A stretch of DNA of 64,000 nucleotides from Aquabacterium sp. GTDB taxonomy: Bacteria; Pseudomonadota; Gammaproteobacteria; Burkholderiales; Burkholderiaceae_C. The first letter of the stretch is position 1, and every line of letters begins with the position of its first letter. The position numbers were made by a program, and so were the translations under genes. Shown piece by piece: positions 13,084-63,891 of this stretch. The stretch is from positions 124,001-188,000 of the forward strand of contig NZ_JAUSAR010000010.1 of NCBI RefSeq assembly GCF_030652515.1. The letters run 5' to 3'. Under the pieces are notes generated by a model. The model ran no database searches, was not told where the DNA came from, and saw only the letters and a program-made list of their open reading frames with translations.

Positions 13084-14514
13084 TCAGCGCAGCAGGCGCC
13101 AGGGACTGACGTTGGCGGGTTTGACGAAGGACTTGGCCCGCTCGGAGACCTTCTGGGTGCTGGCGGCCGGTAGCACGACCAGCAAGGGGCGCATGAGCCG
13201 CTGTGTGATGTCCTCCTCGCTGCGCAGGTGCGGGGTGATCACCTCCAGGGCCAAGGCCACGCCCACGCCCAGCACCGTGCCCAGGATCAAGCCCATCACG
13301 ATGTTCAGCCCCACGCGGGGCCCCGAGGGGAAGGGCGGCGGCGTGGCTTCTTTCACCACCGACACATTGGTCTGGTTGTTCTGGCTTTCCAGGCTGGTCT
13401 GGCTGACGCGGCTGAGCACGTTGTCGTAGGAGCGCTGCGCGTTCTCCACCTCGCGCTGCAGCACCATCACGTCGTTGCGCTGGCCCTTCAGGCGCAGCAC
13501 CCGGAGGCGTTGTTCAACCAGGGCCGAGCGCACCTCGGCCAGTCGGATCTGGTTGACCTCGCTGTTGATGCCCAGGCTGGCTGACACTTTCTGGGTTTCG
13601 GTGTCGATCCGGGACTTCAGTTGGCGGATGTTGGCGCGCAACTCTTGCACTTGGGGGTGCTGGTCACCAAAACGCTCGCTCATCTCGTCCAGCTTGGCCT
13701 CTTCGCGCGCCAGTGCGGTGGTCACGCCCACGATCACCGGGTTGTTCAGGGCCTCGGTGACGCGTTCACCACCCTTGCCGGTGGCCGCCTGGTGGCGGGT
13801 GGTGGATTCGGTGGCGATGGCCTGCAGGGCGACCAGTTGTGTCGACAGCTCGGACAGCTTGGCGTTCTCGATGTCCAGGCGTTCGTCGGTCGAGGTGATG
13901 CCGGTTTCCTGTTGGTAGGCCGACAGCTTGGCCTGGGCTTTCTCAAGCGCCTCACGGGACAGGCGGGCACGCTCGTCGAAGAAGCTGTTGTACTGCCGGG
14001 CTGGCTCCGTGCGCAACTCCAGCGTGGTCTCTGTGTAGGCCTGGACGATCGCGTTGGCCATGGCCGCCACAAAACGGCGGTCCGGCCCGCTGAATGACAC
14101 GTTGATGACGTTCGACTCGCGGGACGGGCGCACCTCCAGCTTGCTGGCGACCACGCCGGCCAGCCATGACTCGAAGTCACCTTCTCCGCGGGTGACTTGG
14201 GCCCAGCGCTCTTTCAAGGCGGGGTTCTCGGTGGTCTTGACGATGCGCAGGGCGCGCTTGACCACGCGCTCACTGGCGATGACGTCGGCCTGCGTGGCCA
14301 CGAACACCGAAGCCAGGCTGGAGGGCACGGCCACGCCCGCGATCGGGTCGATCGAGCCGGTCTTGCCATCCACCAGCACCGACACCGTGGCGGTGTACTG
14401 TTTGGGCAGCAACAGGCTCCAGGTGGTCACCATCGCCACCACGATCAGCATCAAGGCCGTGACCAGGCGCCACCTGGCTTTGAGGACCAACAAAAACTGT
14501 GCGAAGGACAACAT
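13084..14514 (-). CDS. epsF: EpsF-type chain length determinant (Wzz-like) protein
   Basis: This is a 476-residue inner-membrane protein. An N-terminal membrane segment lies at about residues 16-36, followed by the Wzz domain PKQYTATVSVLVDGKTG. The middle is a long periplasmic coiled coil (ARLSREALEKAQAKLSAYQQ and following), then a C-terminal proline-rich membrane segment PSGPRVGLNIVMGLILG. It sets EPS chain length together with EpsG. The ATG at 14514 is chosen because it begins the conserved domain and sits 39 nt downstream of a near-perfect sigma-54 promoter; a longer reading would run through that promoter. It is the first gene of the minus-strand EPS operon. Confidence 0.9.
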   Translation of the reverse strand: MLSFAQFLLVLKARWRLVTALMLIVVAMVTTWSLLLPKQYTATVSVLVDGKTGSIDPIAGVAVPSSLASVFVATQADVIASERVVKRALRIVKTTENPALKERWAQVTRGEGDFESWLAGVVASKLEVRPSRESNVINVSFSGPDRRFVAAMANAIVQAYTETTLELRTEPARQYNSFFDERARLSREALEKAQAKLSAYQQETGITSTDERLDIENAKLSELSTQLVALQAIATESTTRHQAATGKGGERVTEALNNPVIVGVTTALAREEAKLDEMSERFGDQHPQVQELRANIRQLKSRIDTETQKVSASLGINSEVNQIRLAEVRSALVEQRLRVLRLKGQRNDVMVLQREVENAQRSYDNVLSRVSQTSLESQNNQTNVSVVKEATPPPFPSGPRVGLNIVMGLILGTVLGVGVALALEVITPHLRSEEDITQRLMRPLLVVLPAASTQKVSERAKSFVKPANVSPWRLLR

Positions 14515-14552: not shown

Positions 14553-14568
14553 AGCACAGCCCGTGCCA
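14553..14568 (-). promoter_or_regulatory. Sigma-54 (-24/-12) promoter of the epsF-led EPS operon
   Basis: Read on the minus strand this is TGGCACGGGCTGTGCT. It agrees with TGGCACGnnnnTTGCW everywhere except one base (G for T at position 12), with GG and GC at exact spacing. Transcription would start about 12 nt beyond the -12 GC, near 14542, giving a 28-nt leader to the epsF ATG. It implies RpoN plus an enhancer-binding activator for the whole EPS operon. Confidence 0.8.
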
Positions 14569-32295: not shown

Positions 32296-33566
32296 ACGTC
32301 AGCGCCTTCAATCCGATGTCCTGGCTGGGTGGTTTGCGCGAGCGCTTGTCGAGCTGGCGTGGCCAGCATGGCGAGGGCCACGGTGCCTTGCCCGTGCGCG
32401 ACCGCATCAACATCCTGGCCCAACCTTCCAAGGTGATGGGCTTTGACCAATCGCTGGTGTGGGTGGTGCTGTCGCTGTTGGCCCTGGGCCTGATCATGGT
32501 CTATTCGGCCTCCATCGCCTTGCCAGACAGCCCCAAGTTCGCCAAGTACACGCCCGCCTATTTCTTCAGCCGCCACCTGTTCTTCCTGGTCCTGTCCTTG
32601 ATGGTCGCCGCCGTGGTCACGCAGATTCCCTTGTCCACCTGGGAGCGTGTGGCGCCGTGGTTGTTCGTCCTGTCCTTGTTGCTGCTGATGCTGGTGTTGA
32701 TCCCGCACGTGGGCAAGGGCGTCAATGGTGCACGCCGCTGGCTACCGCTGGGCGTGATGAACTTCCAGCCCTCCGAGTTGGCCAAGCTGGCCATCACCCT
32801 TTACGCGGCCGACTACATGGTGCGCAAGATGGAGGTGAAGGAACGCTTCTTCCGCGCCGTGGCCCCGATGGCCGTGGCCGTGGCCGTGGTGGGCTTGCTG
32901 CTGCTGGCCGAGCCCGACATGGGCGCCTTCATGGTGATCGCCGTGATCGCCATGAGCATCCTGTTCCTGGGCGGTGTCAACGGGCGCATGTTCTTCCTGA
33001 TCACGGCCGTGCTGGTGGGCGCCTTCGCGCTGATGGTGTCGCTCAGCCCTTGGCGGCGTGAGCGCATCTTTGCCTACCTGGATCCGTGGGATGAAAAGAA
33101 TGCGCTGGGCAAGGCCTACCAGCTGACCCACTCGCTGATCGCCTTCGGGCGTGGTGAGATTTTTGGCGAAGGCCTGGGCTCCAGCCTGGAGAAGCTGCAC
33201 TACCTGCCCGAGGCGCACACCGACTTCCTGCTGGCCGTGATCGGCGAAGAGCTGGGCTTCATTGGCGTGGCCGTCGTCATCGGCGCCTTCTTCTGGCTGG
33301 TGCGCCGCCTGTTCCACATCGGCCGCCAGGCCATCGCGCTGGACCGGGTCTTCTCAGGCCTGGTGGCGCAGGGCGTGGGCGTGTGGATGGGTGGCCAGGC
33401 CTTCATCAACATGGGCGTGAACCTGGGGGTGTTGCCGACCAAGGGCCTGACCTTGCCGCTGATGAGTTACGGCGGCTCGGGTGTCATGCTGAACTGCATC
33501 GCACTGGCCATCGTATTGAGGGTGGACATCGAGAACCGCCAACTCATGAGAGGAGGCCGCGCATGA
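32292..33566 (+). CDS. ftsW: Septal peptidoglycan polymerase FtsW
   Basis: This is a 424-residue SEDS glycosyltransferase with ten membrane segments that polymerises lipid II at the septum with FtsI. Signatures are [23 protein letters not shown], the catalytic-loop region [19 protein letters not shown], and [14 protein letters not shown]. There is a cytoplasmic N-terminal extension of about 45 residues. The start ATG overlaps the murD stop, and the stop overlaps murG (ATGA). Confidence 0.96.
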
Positions 33567-40614: not shown

Positions 40615-41865
40615 TCAATTCTTGCGGCCCTCAGCCCGGGATTTCGCCCACGCGATCTCGATGGCCGTGACGCGCGCATCCTGGATCGCCTTGCCGATGG
40701 CCGGTCCCTGCTTGCCCGTCTCCATGCATTTCGAAGCCACCTTGGCCGTGTCCACGCCCAAGGCGATGTCCAGCGCCGCTTGCAACCGCGCGGCCTGGGG
40801 GTAGGGTTCCTCGTCCATGCCCAGTCGGCCGCGTGCATCGCACTCGCAGGCCAGGAGCACTTGCTTGAAGCGCTGAGGCTTGCGGATGGCATCGCATCGC
40901 TCCAGCAGCCGCAAGGTGGGCGCCGCTTTCAAATCCCCACTGCGGTGGATGTTGCCGTGCTCGCGAGCGACCACGTCGGCCAGCTCCCGGCAATCAACCG
41001 GCGCCCGCAGGCGCTCGCTCACCGCCTTGAGCAGTCGGGCGCTGCGCTCTTCGTGCCCGATGTGGCGCGGCAGGAGGTGCTCGGGTGTGGTGCCCTTGCC
41101 CAGGTCGTGGCCCAGGCAGGCGTAGCGCACGGCCAGGTCGGCTTGCAGGCGGGCGCTCATGTCCAGCACCATCATCAGGTGCACACCGGTGTCGACCTCG
41201 GGGTGGTACTCCGCCCTTTGCGGCACGCCCCACAGGCGTTCGACCTCGGGCAGCAGGCGGGCCAGGGCGCCGCAGGAGCGCAGCACCTCGAACATGCGCG
41301 AGGGCTTGCTTTCCATCAGGCCTCGTGAGAGTTCCTGCCAGACGCGTTCGGGCACCAGGTGGTCCACCTCGCCGTGCTCGACCATGTCCTGCATCAAGGC
41401 CAGGGTTTCGGGCGCCACGCTGAAATCGTCAAAGCGAGCGGCGAAGCGGGCCAGGCGCAGGATGCGGACCGGGTCTTCCGAGAAGGCGGGCGAGACGTGG
41501 CGCAGCACTTTGGCGGCCAGGTCACGTTGGCCACCGTGGGGATCGACCAGTTGCCCGGATTCGTCTTCGGCAATGGCGTTGATGGTCAGGTCACGGCGCG
41601 CCAGGTCTTCTTCCAGGGTCACGTCGGGCGCGGCGTGAACGACGAACCCCCGGTAGCCGGGCGCGGTTTTGCGTTCGGTGCGGGCCAGGGCGCACTCTTC
41701 CTTCGTGTCGGGATGCAGAAAAACCGGGAAATCACGGCCTACCGGGGTGTAGCCCAGCCCGATCAACTCATCGGGCGAGGCGCCCACCAGCACCCAATCC
41801 CGGTCGCCGGCAGGCCGACCCAGGAGTCGGTCGCGAACGGCACCACCCACTAAAAAACGCTTCAT
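40615..41865 (-). CDS. cca: Multifunctional CCA tRNA nucleotidyltransferase
   Basis: This is a 416-residue class II enzyme adding or repairing tRNA 3-prime CCA ends. The N-terminal MKRFLVGGAVRDRLLG, catalytic DRD (21-23), RRDLTINAIA and DPVRILRLARFAARF are class II signatures. A C-terminal HD domain (HPEVDTGVHLMMVLD, GHDLGKG) marks the long, multifunctional type with phosphohydrolase activity. The ATG at 41865 begins the conserved start; the reading frame remains open 33 codons further upstream without resemblance. It is convergent with ftsZ. Confidence 0.95.
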   Translation of the reverse strand: MKRFLVGGAVRDRLLGRPAGDRDWVLVGASPDELIGLGYTPVGRDFPVFLHPDTKEECALARTERKTAPGYRGFVVHAAPDVTLEEDLARRDLTINAIAEDESGQLVDPHGGQRDLAAKVLRHVSPAFSEDPVRILRLARFAARFDDFSVAPETLALMQDMVEHGEVDHLVPERVWQELSRGLMESKPSRMFEVLRSCGALARLLPEVERLWGVPQRAEYHPEVDTGVHLMMVLDMSARLQADLAVRYACLGHDLGKGTTPEHLLPRHIGHEERSARLLKAVSERLRAPVDCRELADVVAREHGNIHRSGDLKAAPTLRLLERCDAIRKPQRFKQVLLACECDARGRLGMDEEPYPQAARLQAALDIALGVDTAKVASKCMETGKQGPAIGKAIQDARVTAIEIAWAKSRAEGRKN

Positions 41866-42013
41866 GGGTGGGAGTGTATCGGGGCGGACGCACCTGTTTG
41901 GAAAGGGGGGGTGAACACATCGTGGTGCCGTTTTACCCCCTCTTTCAAGGGGGCCTTGTGCCATTGCAGTGCAAATATGGCCGATTTTCCGAGCTCAGTG
42001 GCACGTTCAGATT

Positions 42014-42029
42014 TGGCACGCTTCGTGCA
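42014..42029 (+). promoter_or_regulatory. Sigma-54 (-24/-12) promoter of a PEP-CTERM protein gene
   Basis: TGGCACGCTTCGTGCA matches TGGCACGnnnnTTGCW at every fixed base but one (G for T at position 12). The start site is expected near 42040 and the gene starts at 42076. The -12 core GTGC is the same as in the two EPS promoters of this window. Confidence 0.82.
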
Positions 42030-42075
42030 GTTAAAAAAGCACTTGCAGTAGGTATTTTCTCGGAAGGGATTGATC

Positions 42076-42585
42076 ATGAAAATGACTTCATTGGGCAGTT
42101 TGACCAACTCGGCCTTCAAACACACCAAGCGGGTGGCCGCTGTGGTGACGACGGGCCTGGCCTTGGCCACCGCCAGCGTGTCTTCGCAGGCAGCGGTCGA
42201 GGTGGTCACGGGCACCTTGGACGCCACGACGGTGCCGTTCGGGCTGGACTTGCTCGCCTACGATTTCTCGTCGGGCAACTATGCGTTGACGGTGCTTGGT
42301 TCACCGGTGTTGAGTTTGTTCACAACCAGCTATGCACCGGTCAGCCCCATCACTTCAGGCGTGCCGGGTGTCACCACCTACTCGTTCGCCGGACTGTCGG
42401 GCAGCTACCTGATCAGCTTGTTCGGCGTGGCGGACTCACCCTATACCCTGGTGATGTCGGGCACGGGCACGATCACCCCCACGGCCGTGCCTGAACCTGA
42501 AAGCTATGCTTTGGCCTTGGCGGGTCTGGGTGCGGTGGCCGTCTTGATGCGCCGCCGCCGTCACGGCGACGACAAGCGCGACTGA
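42076..42585 (+). CDS. PEP-CTERM sorting domain protein
   Basis: This is a 169-residue exported protein with a signal peptide (residues about 15-38, ending SSQAA), a small Thr/Ser/Gly-rich mature domain, and a C-terminal exosortase signal: VPEPESY, a hydrophobic helix ALALAGLGAVAVLM, then RRRR. The signal directs processing by an exosortase (EpsH/XrtB type) and release or anchoring in an EPS-containing surface layer. The domain between has no recognisable function. GGAAGGG lies upstream of the ATG at 42076. It is driven by its own sigma-54 promoter. Confidence 0.9.
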   Translation: MKMTSLGSLTNSAFKHTKRVAAVVTTGLALATASVSSQAAVEVVTGTLDATTVPFGLDLLAYDFSSGNYALTVLGSPVLSLFTTSYAPVSPITSGVPGVTTYSFAGLSGSYLISLFGVADSPYTLVMSGTGTITPTAVPEPESYALALAGLGAVAVLMRRRRHGDDKRD

Positions 42586-42616
42586 GGGTCTCCCGGCAGT
42601 GGTGCCGGGCATCTTC

Positions 42617-43408
42617 TCAACCCTGGCAATGCTTGGCCAGCGCCAGGTACTCGGCCACCGGCACCTCTTCAGCGCGGCGTGTCACGTTGAACTCGACGCT
42701 CACCCCGCGCGCGGTCAGCCAGGCGCCCAGCGTGTGACGCAGCAATTTGCGCCGCTGAGAAAACGCCACGGTCACGATCTCGCCCAGCAGCTTCTGGTTG
42801 ATGCCCTCAATGGGCGGCAGGGGCACCATGCGTACCACGGCGGAATCCACCCGGGGGGGCGGATCGAAGGCGGTGGGCGGCACGTCCACCACCGACTCCA
42901 TGTGGTAACGCCACTGCAGCATCACGCTCAGGCGCCCGTAGTCTTTGCAGCCCGGCCCGGCCACCATGCGGTCCACCACTTCCTTTTGCAGCATGAAGTG
43001 CTGGTCTTCCACCTGGTCGGCCCAGGGCAGCAGGTGGAACAGGATGGGCGTGGAGATGTTGTAGGGCAGGTTGCCGATCACGCGCAATTTTTGCGGTGCG
43101 TGTGTTTGCGCCAGCGCGCCAAAATCGACCTTGAGCACGTCGGATTCGATGACGGTCAGCTCCGGGCGCTGGCGCAAGCGTTGCACCAGGTCCCGGTCCA
43201 GTTCGATCACGGTGAGGTGCTCGCACTCGGCGACCACGGGGTCGGTCATCGCCCCCAGGCCGGGGCCGATCTCCACCAGTGCCTGGCCCGGCTTGGGCTT
43301 GATGGCGCGCACGATGTCTTCGATGACGCCGACATCGGCCAGGAAATGCTGGCCAAAGCGCTTGCGCGCGAAGTGGCCCTTGTGGCTGCTTTGGCGATCA
43401 GGGGGCAT
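42617..43408 (-). CDS. rsmA: 16S rRNA adenine dimethyltransferase RsmA (KsgA)
   Basis: This is a 263-residue SAM methyltransferase that dimethylates A1518 and A1519 of 16S rRNA. Motifs are [31 protein letters not shown], and the catalytic NLPYNIS; the late [12 protein letters not shown] is also typical. It overlaps the surA end by 11 nt. In many proteobacteria pdxA lies between surA and rsmA; here it is missing. Confidence 0.96.
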
Positions 43409-60292: not shown

Positions 60293-60907
60293 TCAGCTCA
60301 TGCGCCGACGCGACAGCAGCATTGCGCTCAGGCCCGCCAGGATCAAAGCGGCCGTGGCAGGCTCTGGCACCGTGGTGGCCGTGTCCACGCCCGACAGGTT
60401 CAAGCGCCAGAAGGTGCCTTTCTGGTCGTTGGCGTTGACGTTGTAGCTGGGCTGCATCCATTGCGAGATCAAGGTCGGTGTGCTGCCGTCCAAGGCAAAG
60501 CCTTGGGACAACTGCGTGCCGTTGGCGTAGTTGGGCGCTGCACCCAGGGTGACCAGGTACTGGCCCGCCATCAGGGTGGCCAGTGACAAACCGGCGTCGT
60601 AGAAGCCTTGGGCCGGGCCGATGGTGTGGTCATCGTCGTTGTCGCCGACCAGGTTGTAGCCGCTGCCGTCCTTGATCCACAAGGTCAGGGTGGGGTCGAA
60701 GTTCAGGCCGTCGGTCCACGAGTCGGTCCACAGGCGGACCTGGCTGCTGGCCGCGTTGAGGGTGAAGGCCACCTGCACCACATCCGTGTTGTAGGCGAGG
60801 TCGCCATCAAAGCTGAAGTTGGCGGCCTGCGCCTGCAGGCTGCTCAAAGCCAGGGCAGCGGCGGCGATGGCCGCAGGGCGAATGAAGGGTGACAGGGCTT
60901 GCATCAT
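60293..60907 (-). CDS. PEP-CTERM protein downstream of phoD
   Basis: This is a 204-residue exported protein with a signal peptide (ending SLQAQA, about residue 27), a mature domain with the pre-peptidase-like pattern FDGDLAYNTDVVQVAF and SGYNLVGDNDDD, similar to DVUA0089-type PEP-CTERM proteins, and a C-terminal sorting signal VPEPATAALILAGLSAMLLSRRR. It is predicted to be exported and processed by an exosortase. It follows phoD by 40 nt with AAAGGA upstream of its ATG, so it is probably cotranscribed. Confidence 0.88.
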   Translation of the reverse strand: MMQALSPFIRPAAIAAAALALSSLQAQAANFSFDGDLAYNTDVVQVAFTLNAASSQVRLWTDSWTDGLNFDPTLTLWIKDGSGYNLVGDNDDDHTIGPAQGFYDAGLSLATLMAGQYLVTLGAAPNYANGTQLSQGFALDGSTPTLISQWMQPSYNVNANDQKGTFWRLNLSGVDTATTVPEPATAALILAGLSAMLLSRRRMS

Positions 60908-63204: not shown

Positions 63205-63891
63205 TCATGCCTGGCGACGGCGGCGCAGCAAGGCGATGGTGCCCAGGCCCAGGGCCGCCAGCAGGATGCTTTCGGGTTCGGGCACGGCCTGCGTGTAGGC
63301 GAAGTTGTCCATCACCACGCCATCACCTTGCACGGTGATGTAGGCGATGTCGGCATGGGCCAGGCGGATGCCTTGCGTCACCGAGAAGTTGGTGGAATAG
63401 ATCAACTGGCTGTCATCCAGGTCCACGCCATCGAGCGAGGTCGCGAACGAACCCAGGGTGAAGGTCTCCGAGCTGCCGTCGATGCCGTAGGCCGTGACCG
63501 TGGTCAGGCGGTCGTCACCGGCTTCTTCGTACATGCTCCAGTCGGCCAGGAAGGCGCGGGTCTTCAAGCCGTTGAAGTCGATGCGCAGGGTCATGTCGCC
63601 AATCTTGTCGAACGACAGGAAAGACTTGCCAGCACCCCAGCTGCCATTGATGCCCAGGTCGGTGGCAATGCGTTGGCCAACGGTGAAGTCGCCGTCTTGC
63701 GAGCTGAGCGTGACGGGAGGGACGTTGGCGCTGTAGGACGAGCCGATGCCGATGAACAGGCCGTCTTCCGCGTTGAAGTCAATGACTTGCGCGGGGGCGG
63801 GCAGTTGGCTGGTCTGGTTGATGAGCGCAGCTTGGGCCTGGAAGGCCACAGAGGCCAAACCCAGGGCGGCGATGGTGAAAATGTGACGCAT
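63205..63891 (-). CDS. PEP-CTERM sorting domain protein
   Basis: This is a 228-residue exported protein with a signal peptide (residues 1-21, ending FQAQA), a beta-rich mature domain of about 170 residues including FLSFDKIGDMTLRIDFNG, and the exosortase signal VPEPESILLAALGLGTIALL followed by RRRR. AAGGAG lies seven bases before the ATG. The mature domain contains no catalytic motif I recognise. It follows the truncated right-edge gene by 29 nt, so it may be its downstream operon partner. Confidence 0.88.
   Translation of the reverse strand: MRHIFTIAALGLASVAFQAQAALINQTSQLPAPAQVIDFNAEDGLFIGIGSSYSANVPPVTLSSQDGDFTVGQRIATDLGINGSWGAGKSFLSFDKIGDMTLRIDFNGLKTRAFLADWSMYEEAGDDRLTTVTAYGIDGSSETFTLGSFATSLDGVDLDDSQLIYSTNFSVTQGIRLAHADIAYITVQGDGVVMDNFAYTQAVPEPESILLAALGLGTIALLRRRRQA

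Follow-up and report, generated by a model that had tools for sequence, protein, structure and literature searches.

Does the sigma-54-type sequence that lies ahead of a PEP-CTERM surface-protein gene in Aquabacterium sp. belong to a wide regulon of such genes, or to the single gene and chromosomal position beside which it is found? Sigma-54 control of PEP-CTERM genes has so far been known together with PrsK/PrsR; Haft et al. 2006 (PMC1569441) report sigma-54 sites, with this system, ahead of 99 out of 167 PEP-CTERM genes of proteobacteria. The sequence considered here starts at position 42014 of the 64,000-nt stretch of DNA that we analyzed (hereafter the window). A first-pass annotation related it to PrsK/PrsR control and, through a GTGC variant of the −12 element shared by three cores in the window, joined it with an EPS locus in a single candidate regulon.

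The 16-nt core TGGCACGCTTCGTGCA (TGGCACG-CTTC-GTGCA) occupies positions 42014–42029 of the forward strand and has GG at −24 and GC at −12 with standard spacing, as judged from the published consensus; it departs by one base from TGGCACGNNNNTTGCW, the sigma-54 consensus. Its first base lies 62 nt, and its end 46 nt, upstream of the ATG at 42076, and transcription is predicted to start at about 42040. The gene behind it (42076–42585, + strand) encodes a 169-aa protein with a C-terminal PF07589 match of 35.7 bits, over the Pfam cut-off of 20.7, and its sorting tail is placed at 42484–42561 by this match and by the comparison of tail DNA. The annotated arrangement of a core ahead of a PEP-CTERM gene was thus correct in position, strand and domain. 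The protein scores below the cut-off of the floc_PepA model (NF033554; 33.9 bits, cut-off 80), and, with its body included, it scores below that of the FxDxF PEP-CTERM model (NF038126; 43.5 bits, cut-off 50), to which the body without the tail gave no match. Its predicted structure had a mean pLDDT of 34.6 and was left out of the reasoning.

The gene stands between two ORFs on the opposite strand. The divergent neighbor (40615–41865, − strand) is, by its sequence, cca (tRNA nucleotidyltransferase), and the other border (42617–43408, − strand) is rsmA/ksgA (16S rRNA dimethyltransferase); we refer to the space between them as the slot. Neither an Rfam match nor sigma-70 hexamers were found at 41800–42700, and a DNA search against plasmids gave no match. 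An extra TGGCACG is present at 41999–42005, 15 nt upstream of the core, and is unique to this genome among the 23 loci compared.

We asked how far such a core exceeds chance, using a sigma-54 weight matrix based on the published consensus, which also served for choosing sites. The pattern itself says little. Although TGGCACN5GTGC occurs three times in the window (848, 14554 on the − strand, and 42014) versus 0.61 expected in shuffles, it has 39 sites in the whole genome (5.42 Mb in 229 contigs, an assembly flagged as 8.99% contaminated), compared with 96 for the pattern read backwards. A genome-wide enrichment of the GTGC pattern was therefore rejected: taken by itself, the pattern is no more frequent in this genome than expected by chance. 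A stricter form, TGGCACGN5TGCW, gave 20 sites versus 12 in the control. What raises the 42014 site above chance is its place and its conservation. The genome holds 52 PEP-CTERM matches over the cut-off, and when 250 nt upstream of each gene were scored (135 nt for one gene), the 42014 site ranked first with 15.9 bits, the next values being 10.8, 10.3 and 9.5 bits; it is also kept in relatives. Chance frequency, the finding that the first-pass annotation had named as telling against it, thus describes the pattern across the genome but not the site itself.

The protein search took in 42 genus and 299 family genomes, plus one scan of named genomes. One close ortholog of the 169-aa protein was obtained, in Aquabacterium sp. 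LF-bin-187 (82% identity; 83% in genome G313, very likely the same organism), and the core there is TGGCACGCTTCATGC, with one change in 15 and more diverged surroundings. We found cca in 41 of the 42 genus genomes (no match in G309), and 40 of these were readable past its start (the contig ends in G315). A PEP-CTERM-type ORF adjoins cca in 23 of the 40, and 22 of the 23 ORFs match PF07589, the exception being the shortened ORF of G321. A sense site of at least 11.5 bits was present in 21 of the 23 genomes with such an ORF, compared with 2 of the 17 without (Fisher test, P = 4e-7, uncorrected for kinship; the counts are not independent, because the genomes are related), whereas the reversed and antisense controls yielded 0/40 and 2/40, respectively. 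The probability of reaching at least 11.9 bits by chance within 250 nt was 0.02. In the 20 slot ORFs with a well-picked start, the site lies at −49 to −71 relative to the start codon; a further site (15.9 bits) belongs to G321, for whose ORF a wrong start, upstream of the site, had been picked. Both slot ORFs without a site (G317 and G310) encode a different type of protein. The T, GG, A and TGC positions are invariant in all 23 sites, which is partly a selection effect because the sites were chosen at >11.5 bits, and at position 12 there is an A in 16 sites, a G in four and a C in three.

A sigma-54 promoter is very probably conserved at the cca-rsmA locus. A chance resemblance to the consensus in GC-rich DNA would accord with the genome-wide counts of the pattern, but the difference between genomes with and without the slot ORF, the narrow range of distances and the clean reversed control make it extremely improbable. 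The transcription of the slot gene would, by these features, depend on sigma-54. Two genomes without the ORF, G327 (locus L225) and G319 (locus L229), keep a strong site between cca and rsmA, in gaps of 121 and 106 nt; these are perhaps promoters left after gene loss, or promoters aimed at the 3′ end of rsmA.

Sigma-54-like sites precede other PEP-CTERM genes too, and it is only at the slot, within the genus, that they are regular. Fifteen of the 43 homolog loci obtained from protein searches scored at least 11.5 bits. Nine were cca-slot loci of the genus (L147, the LF-bin-187 locus, and L149 very likely represent one organism), one was an off-slot locus of the genus (L159 in G321, 14.8 bits at −34), and five were in other genera and not beside cca (L118, L119, L130, L132 and L135). 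The off-slot sites score 12.4–14.8 bits upstream of PEP-CTERM genes, and these loci may possibly encode further RpoN-controlled surface proteins. In other genera, the PEP-CTERM genes that do adjoin cca (L121, L125, L127 and L134) had no site (2.2–4.0 bits).

We considered whether the 42014 site belongs to a large set of PEP-CTERM promoters controlled by PrsK/PrsR and co-regulating EPS, as the published frequency of such promoters and the three cores in the window might suggest. A site of at least 11 bits precedes only 1 of the 52 PEP-CTERM genes in this genome, and a PEP-CTERM-wide promoter was rejected on this count. With the PrsR model (TIGR02915), the best score in the genome was 388.6 bits, below the curated cut-off of 502.6, and the same protein scored higher as GlrR (627.1 bits, itself below the GlrR cut-off of 763). 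Exosortases, whose presence the annotation had proposed to check, were found: five exceed the cut-off, and all pass the XrtB model, two of them narrowly (275.8 and 277.3 bits versus 275). On the XrtA model the five score 127–158 bits, below its cut-off of 208, so that no XrtA was obtained. The TTTACA box of PrsR (motif 1) was found in 0 of 21 intergenic regions (34–168 nt each, with stretches internal to cca excluded), which is an absence of support because 0.3 occurrences were expected by chance. Taken with the lack of conservation at epsF described below, these results render a PrsK/PrsR regulon of this kind very improbable; by the evidence here, the 42014 promoter is not PrsR-controlled.

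The two other PEP-CTERM genes of the window (60293–60907 and 63205–63891, both − strand) have no notable site upstream, their best scores being 7.6 and −1.9 bits. Two of the XrtB exosortases, L067 and L068, are located on the contig of the window (C56), one on either side of it, and L068 carries a fused EpsI-type domain; an exosortase lies ∼8 kb to the left of the window (C56:115174–115941).

With respect to EPS, the second sigma-54-like core of the window, TGGCACGGGCTGTGCT (14553–14568, − strand, 15.2 bits), lies 54 nt upstream of the ATG of epsF, the chain length determinant of the EPS locus (13084–14514, − strand; TIGR03017, 485.9 bits, cut-off 422.75), and the cluster also contains an EpsG-like kinase. 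Taken alone, this core is a plausible promoter element. However, when 29 further epsF loci from the genus, a part of the listed matches, were scored, none had a site of at least 12.5 bits with GG and GC intact; L161 reached 14.6 bits but without the GC, and L175 reached 12.0 bits. The genome itself has four epsF-like matches. The third pattern match, TGGCACAGCTTGTGCG (848–863, + strand), is weak (11.3 bits) and lies 53 nt upstream of an ATG at 901; the acyltransferase-like ORF starting there had no NCBIfam match. Since the epsF site is not kept and position 12 varies at the slot, the shared GTGC variant gives no support for tying EPS and PEP-CTERM genes into one regulon, and a link of the 42014 promoter with EPS is not demonstrated. 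What endures of the earlier interpretation is therefore a sigma-54-type promoter before a PEP-CTERM gene in a genome with exosortases, and what finds no support is the PrsR link and the EPS regulon.

The locus can be set against two described systems. According to PMC9850573, pepA of Aquincola tertiaricarbonis RN12 is an RpoN1-dependent PEP-CTERM gene of floc formation, with a mapped start, −24/−12 motifs TGGCAC and CTGCTT, and nearly 85 nt of intergenic DNA ahead; it lies upstream of prsT, and the Aquincola genome carries prsK and prsR. The slot gene resembles pepA in being a PEP-CTERM gene with predicted TGGCAC-type −24/−12 motifs, and differs in its location between cca and rsmA, in the XrtB type of the exosortases, in a PrsR score below the cut-off and in the low floc_PepA score of its product. 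Likewise, it shares with the PEP-CTERM cis-site accompanying PrsK/PrsR/PrsT in Haft et al. (PMC1569441) a sigma-54 motif ahead of a single-gene PEP-CTERM unit, and the 46 nt from core to ATG compare with a published proteobacterial mean of 71 (S.D. 38.5). Unlike that system, motif 1, which ends in TTTACA, was not found, and the strong site precedes one gene rather than most. Our literature searches yielded no paper on XrtB with a promoter or on FxDxF, none connecting PEP-CTERM to gene conversion or to recombination and diversification, and nothing relevant on Aquabacterium with PEP-CTERM.

The proteins encoded in the slot differ in their mature bodies. Grouping by BLASTP gave type A (the present genome, G000, with G313 and G334), type B (G328, G312, G333, G324 and G326), type C (10 genomes), type D (G300 and G306) and type E (G310 and G317, without the site), and G321 has a remnant body. 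By hhalign, with profiles of 2–10 sequences, types A, B, C and E were mutually unrelated (probability under 1%), and A and D showed a weak relation (13%, shuffle z about 4). Within a clade of five genomes whose Cca proteins are 93–94% identical to that of G000 (support 99/98), type A is found in G000 and G313, and type B in G328, G312 and G333; type B appears again (48–52% identity) in two genomes with a Cca 72% identical to that of G000, namely G324 and G326. On the tree that gave this support, which holds 33 genomes and from which the slot-ORF genomes G324, G326, G301 and G310 were left out, one change is forced for B, and two are forced for A, by starred branches.

When A and B genomes of this clade were compared in 50-nt blocks, identity was 26–54% in the body, 70–88% in the tail block and mostly 72–98% in rsmA. 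The tail DNA of G328 (type B) is 86% identical to that of G313 (type A, same clade), compared with 65–67% to those of G324 and G326 (type B), and the best other PEP tail of G000 is 72% identical to the G328 tail. Similarly, the core plus leader of G328 is 72% identical to that of G313 versus 56–62% for G324 and G326. The tail of G334 (type A) is 81% identical to those of G300 and G306 (type D), 72% to that of G328 and 62% to that of G000 (type A). The leader of G000 carries no clade signal (56–61% identity with the type B members of its clade versus 59–61% with G324 and G326). For the most part, then, species relationships are mirrored by the promoter and the sorting tail but not by the mature body. 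Away from the slot, both type B bodies that were found (G306 and G334) lack a promoter-placed site, the best scores being 5.4 bits and 11.7 bits, the latter overlapping a start codon.

Because the ends of the gene mostly follow the species while the middle follows the type, we read this pattern as a possible intragenic exchange, and exchange of the displayed protein is likely rather than proven. In its full form, in which the cca-rsmA gap would be a dedicated display slot with a fixed sigma-54 promoter and sorting tail, whose mature domains are exchanged by intragenic recombination, we hold this proposal at even odds or slightly less, since the mosaic evidence consists of short stretches (78 nt in the tail, and 61 nt in the core and leader together). 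If it is true, one regulated surface position shows different proteins in close relatives, like variable surface-antigen loci. An alternative accepts the promoter as real and attributes the differing bodies to fast divergence of one gene. It would account for the match of 22 of the 23 slot proteins, with their tails, to the FxDxF PEP-CTERM model, for the seemingly remote relation of A and D and for the lack of clade signal in the G000 leader, and the small size of the hhalign profiles leaves room for it. However, when the bodies of types A–D were queried without their tails, no family was matched credibly, the best hit being an unrelated receptor at E 0.012, and A and B are unrelated between genomes of 93–94% Cca identity, whereas B recurs where Cca identity is 72%; we consider fast divergence unlikely, though deserving of some weight.

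The reading that we prefer, with a probability of roughly 0.7 for the whole, is that of a sigma-54 promoter of a single-gene cca-rsmA unit with an XrtB-sorted product, the promoter being tied to the slot and the bodies exchanged. Sigma-54 (RpoN) polymerase would bind TGGCACG/TGC ahead of this unit, and an enhancer-binding protein that is not PrsR by the curated model would open the promoter. The product would be exported and then sorted to the surface via an XrtB exosortase, and across the genus the promoter would go with the chromosomal slot, persisting there alongside mature domains of different kinds. A promoter kept while the displayed protein changes suggests selection on regulation and surface position, and not on one protein.

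As the exosortases are XrtB and no protein passes the curated PrsR model, the promoter would require a different activator. One candidate activator site is the half-site GTGGTGC (41922–41928, + strand), 92 nt upstream of the −24 box, which may instead belong to the cca promoter. We counted 22 occurrences of TGGTGC or GCACCA, spread over 16 of the 21 intergenic regions, versus 3.6 in shuffles, and nine of GTGC-N3-8-GCAC, in 9 of the 21, versus 1.0 expected; both patterns were chosen post hoc and may serve cca, and the elements lie near −90 in ten genomes. Palindromes in the NtrC orientation (GCAC..GTGC) occurred twice in the intergenic DNA versus 1.0 expected. Motif discovery upstream returned half-sites and no single positioned dyad, and wider motifs extended into cca. 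A CCCCCT-N6-AGGGGG dyad (41936–41953) is found at the same distance in G313 and G328, and in 3 of the 23 site-bearing loci overall.

Eleven sigma-54 activator genes were read in the genome, two of which (L064 and L192) were profiled over the genus. L192 (C66) was rejected as a common activator, being present in 3 of 42 genomes. Orthologs of L064 (C150:29778–31181; E up to 1e-140) were present in 14 of the 21 genomes with a sigma-54 slot and in 6 of the 19 others (P = 0.056), so that it cannot be the activator in all genomes. L064 is a response-regulator-type sigma-54 activator located <2 kb from a PEP-CTERM gene (C150, about 32565–33060), and the site upstream of that gene, GGGCATGACCTTTGCT (10.8 bits, at −66), ranks second among the 52.
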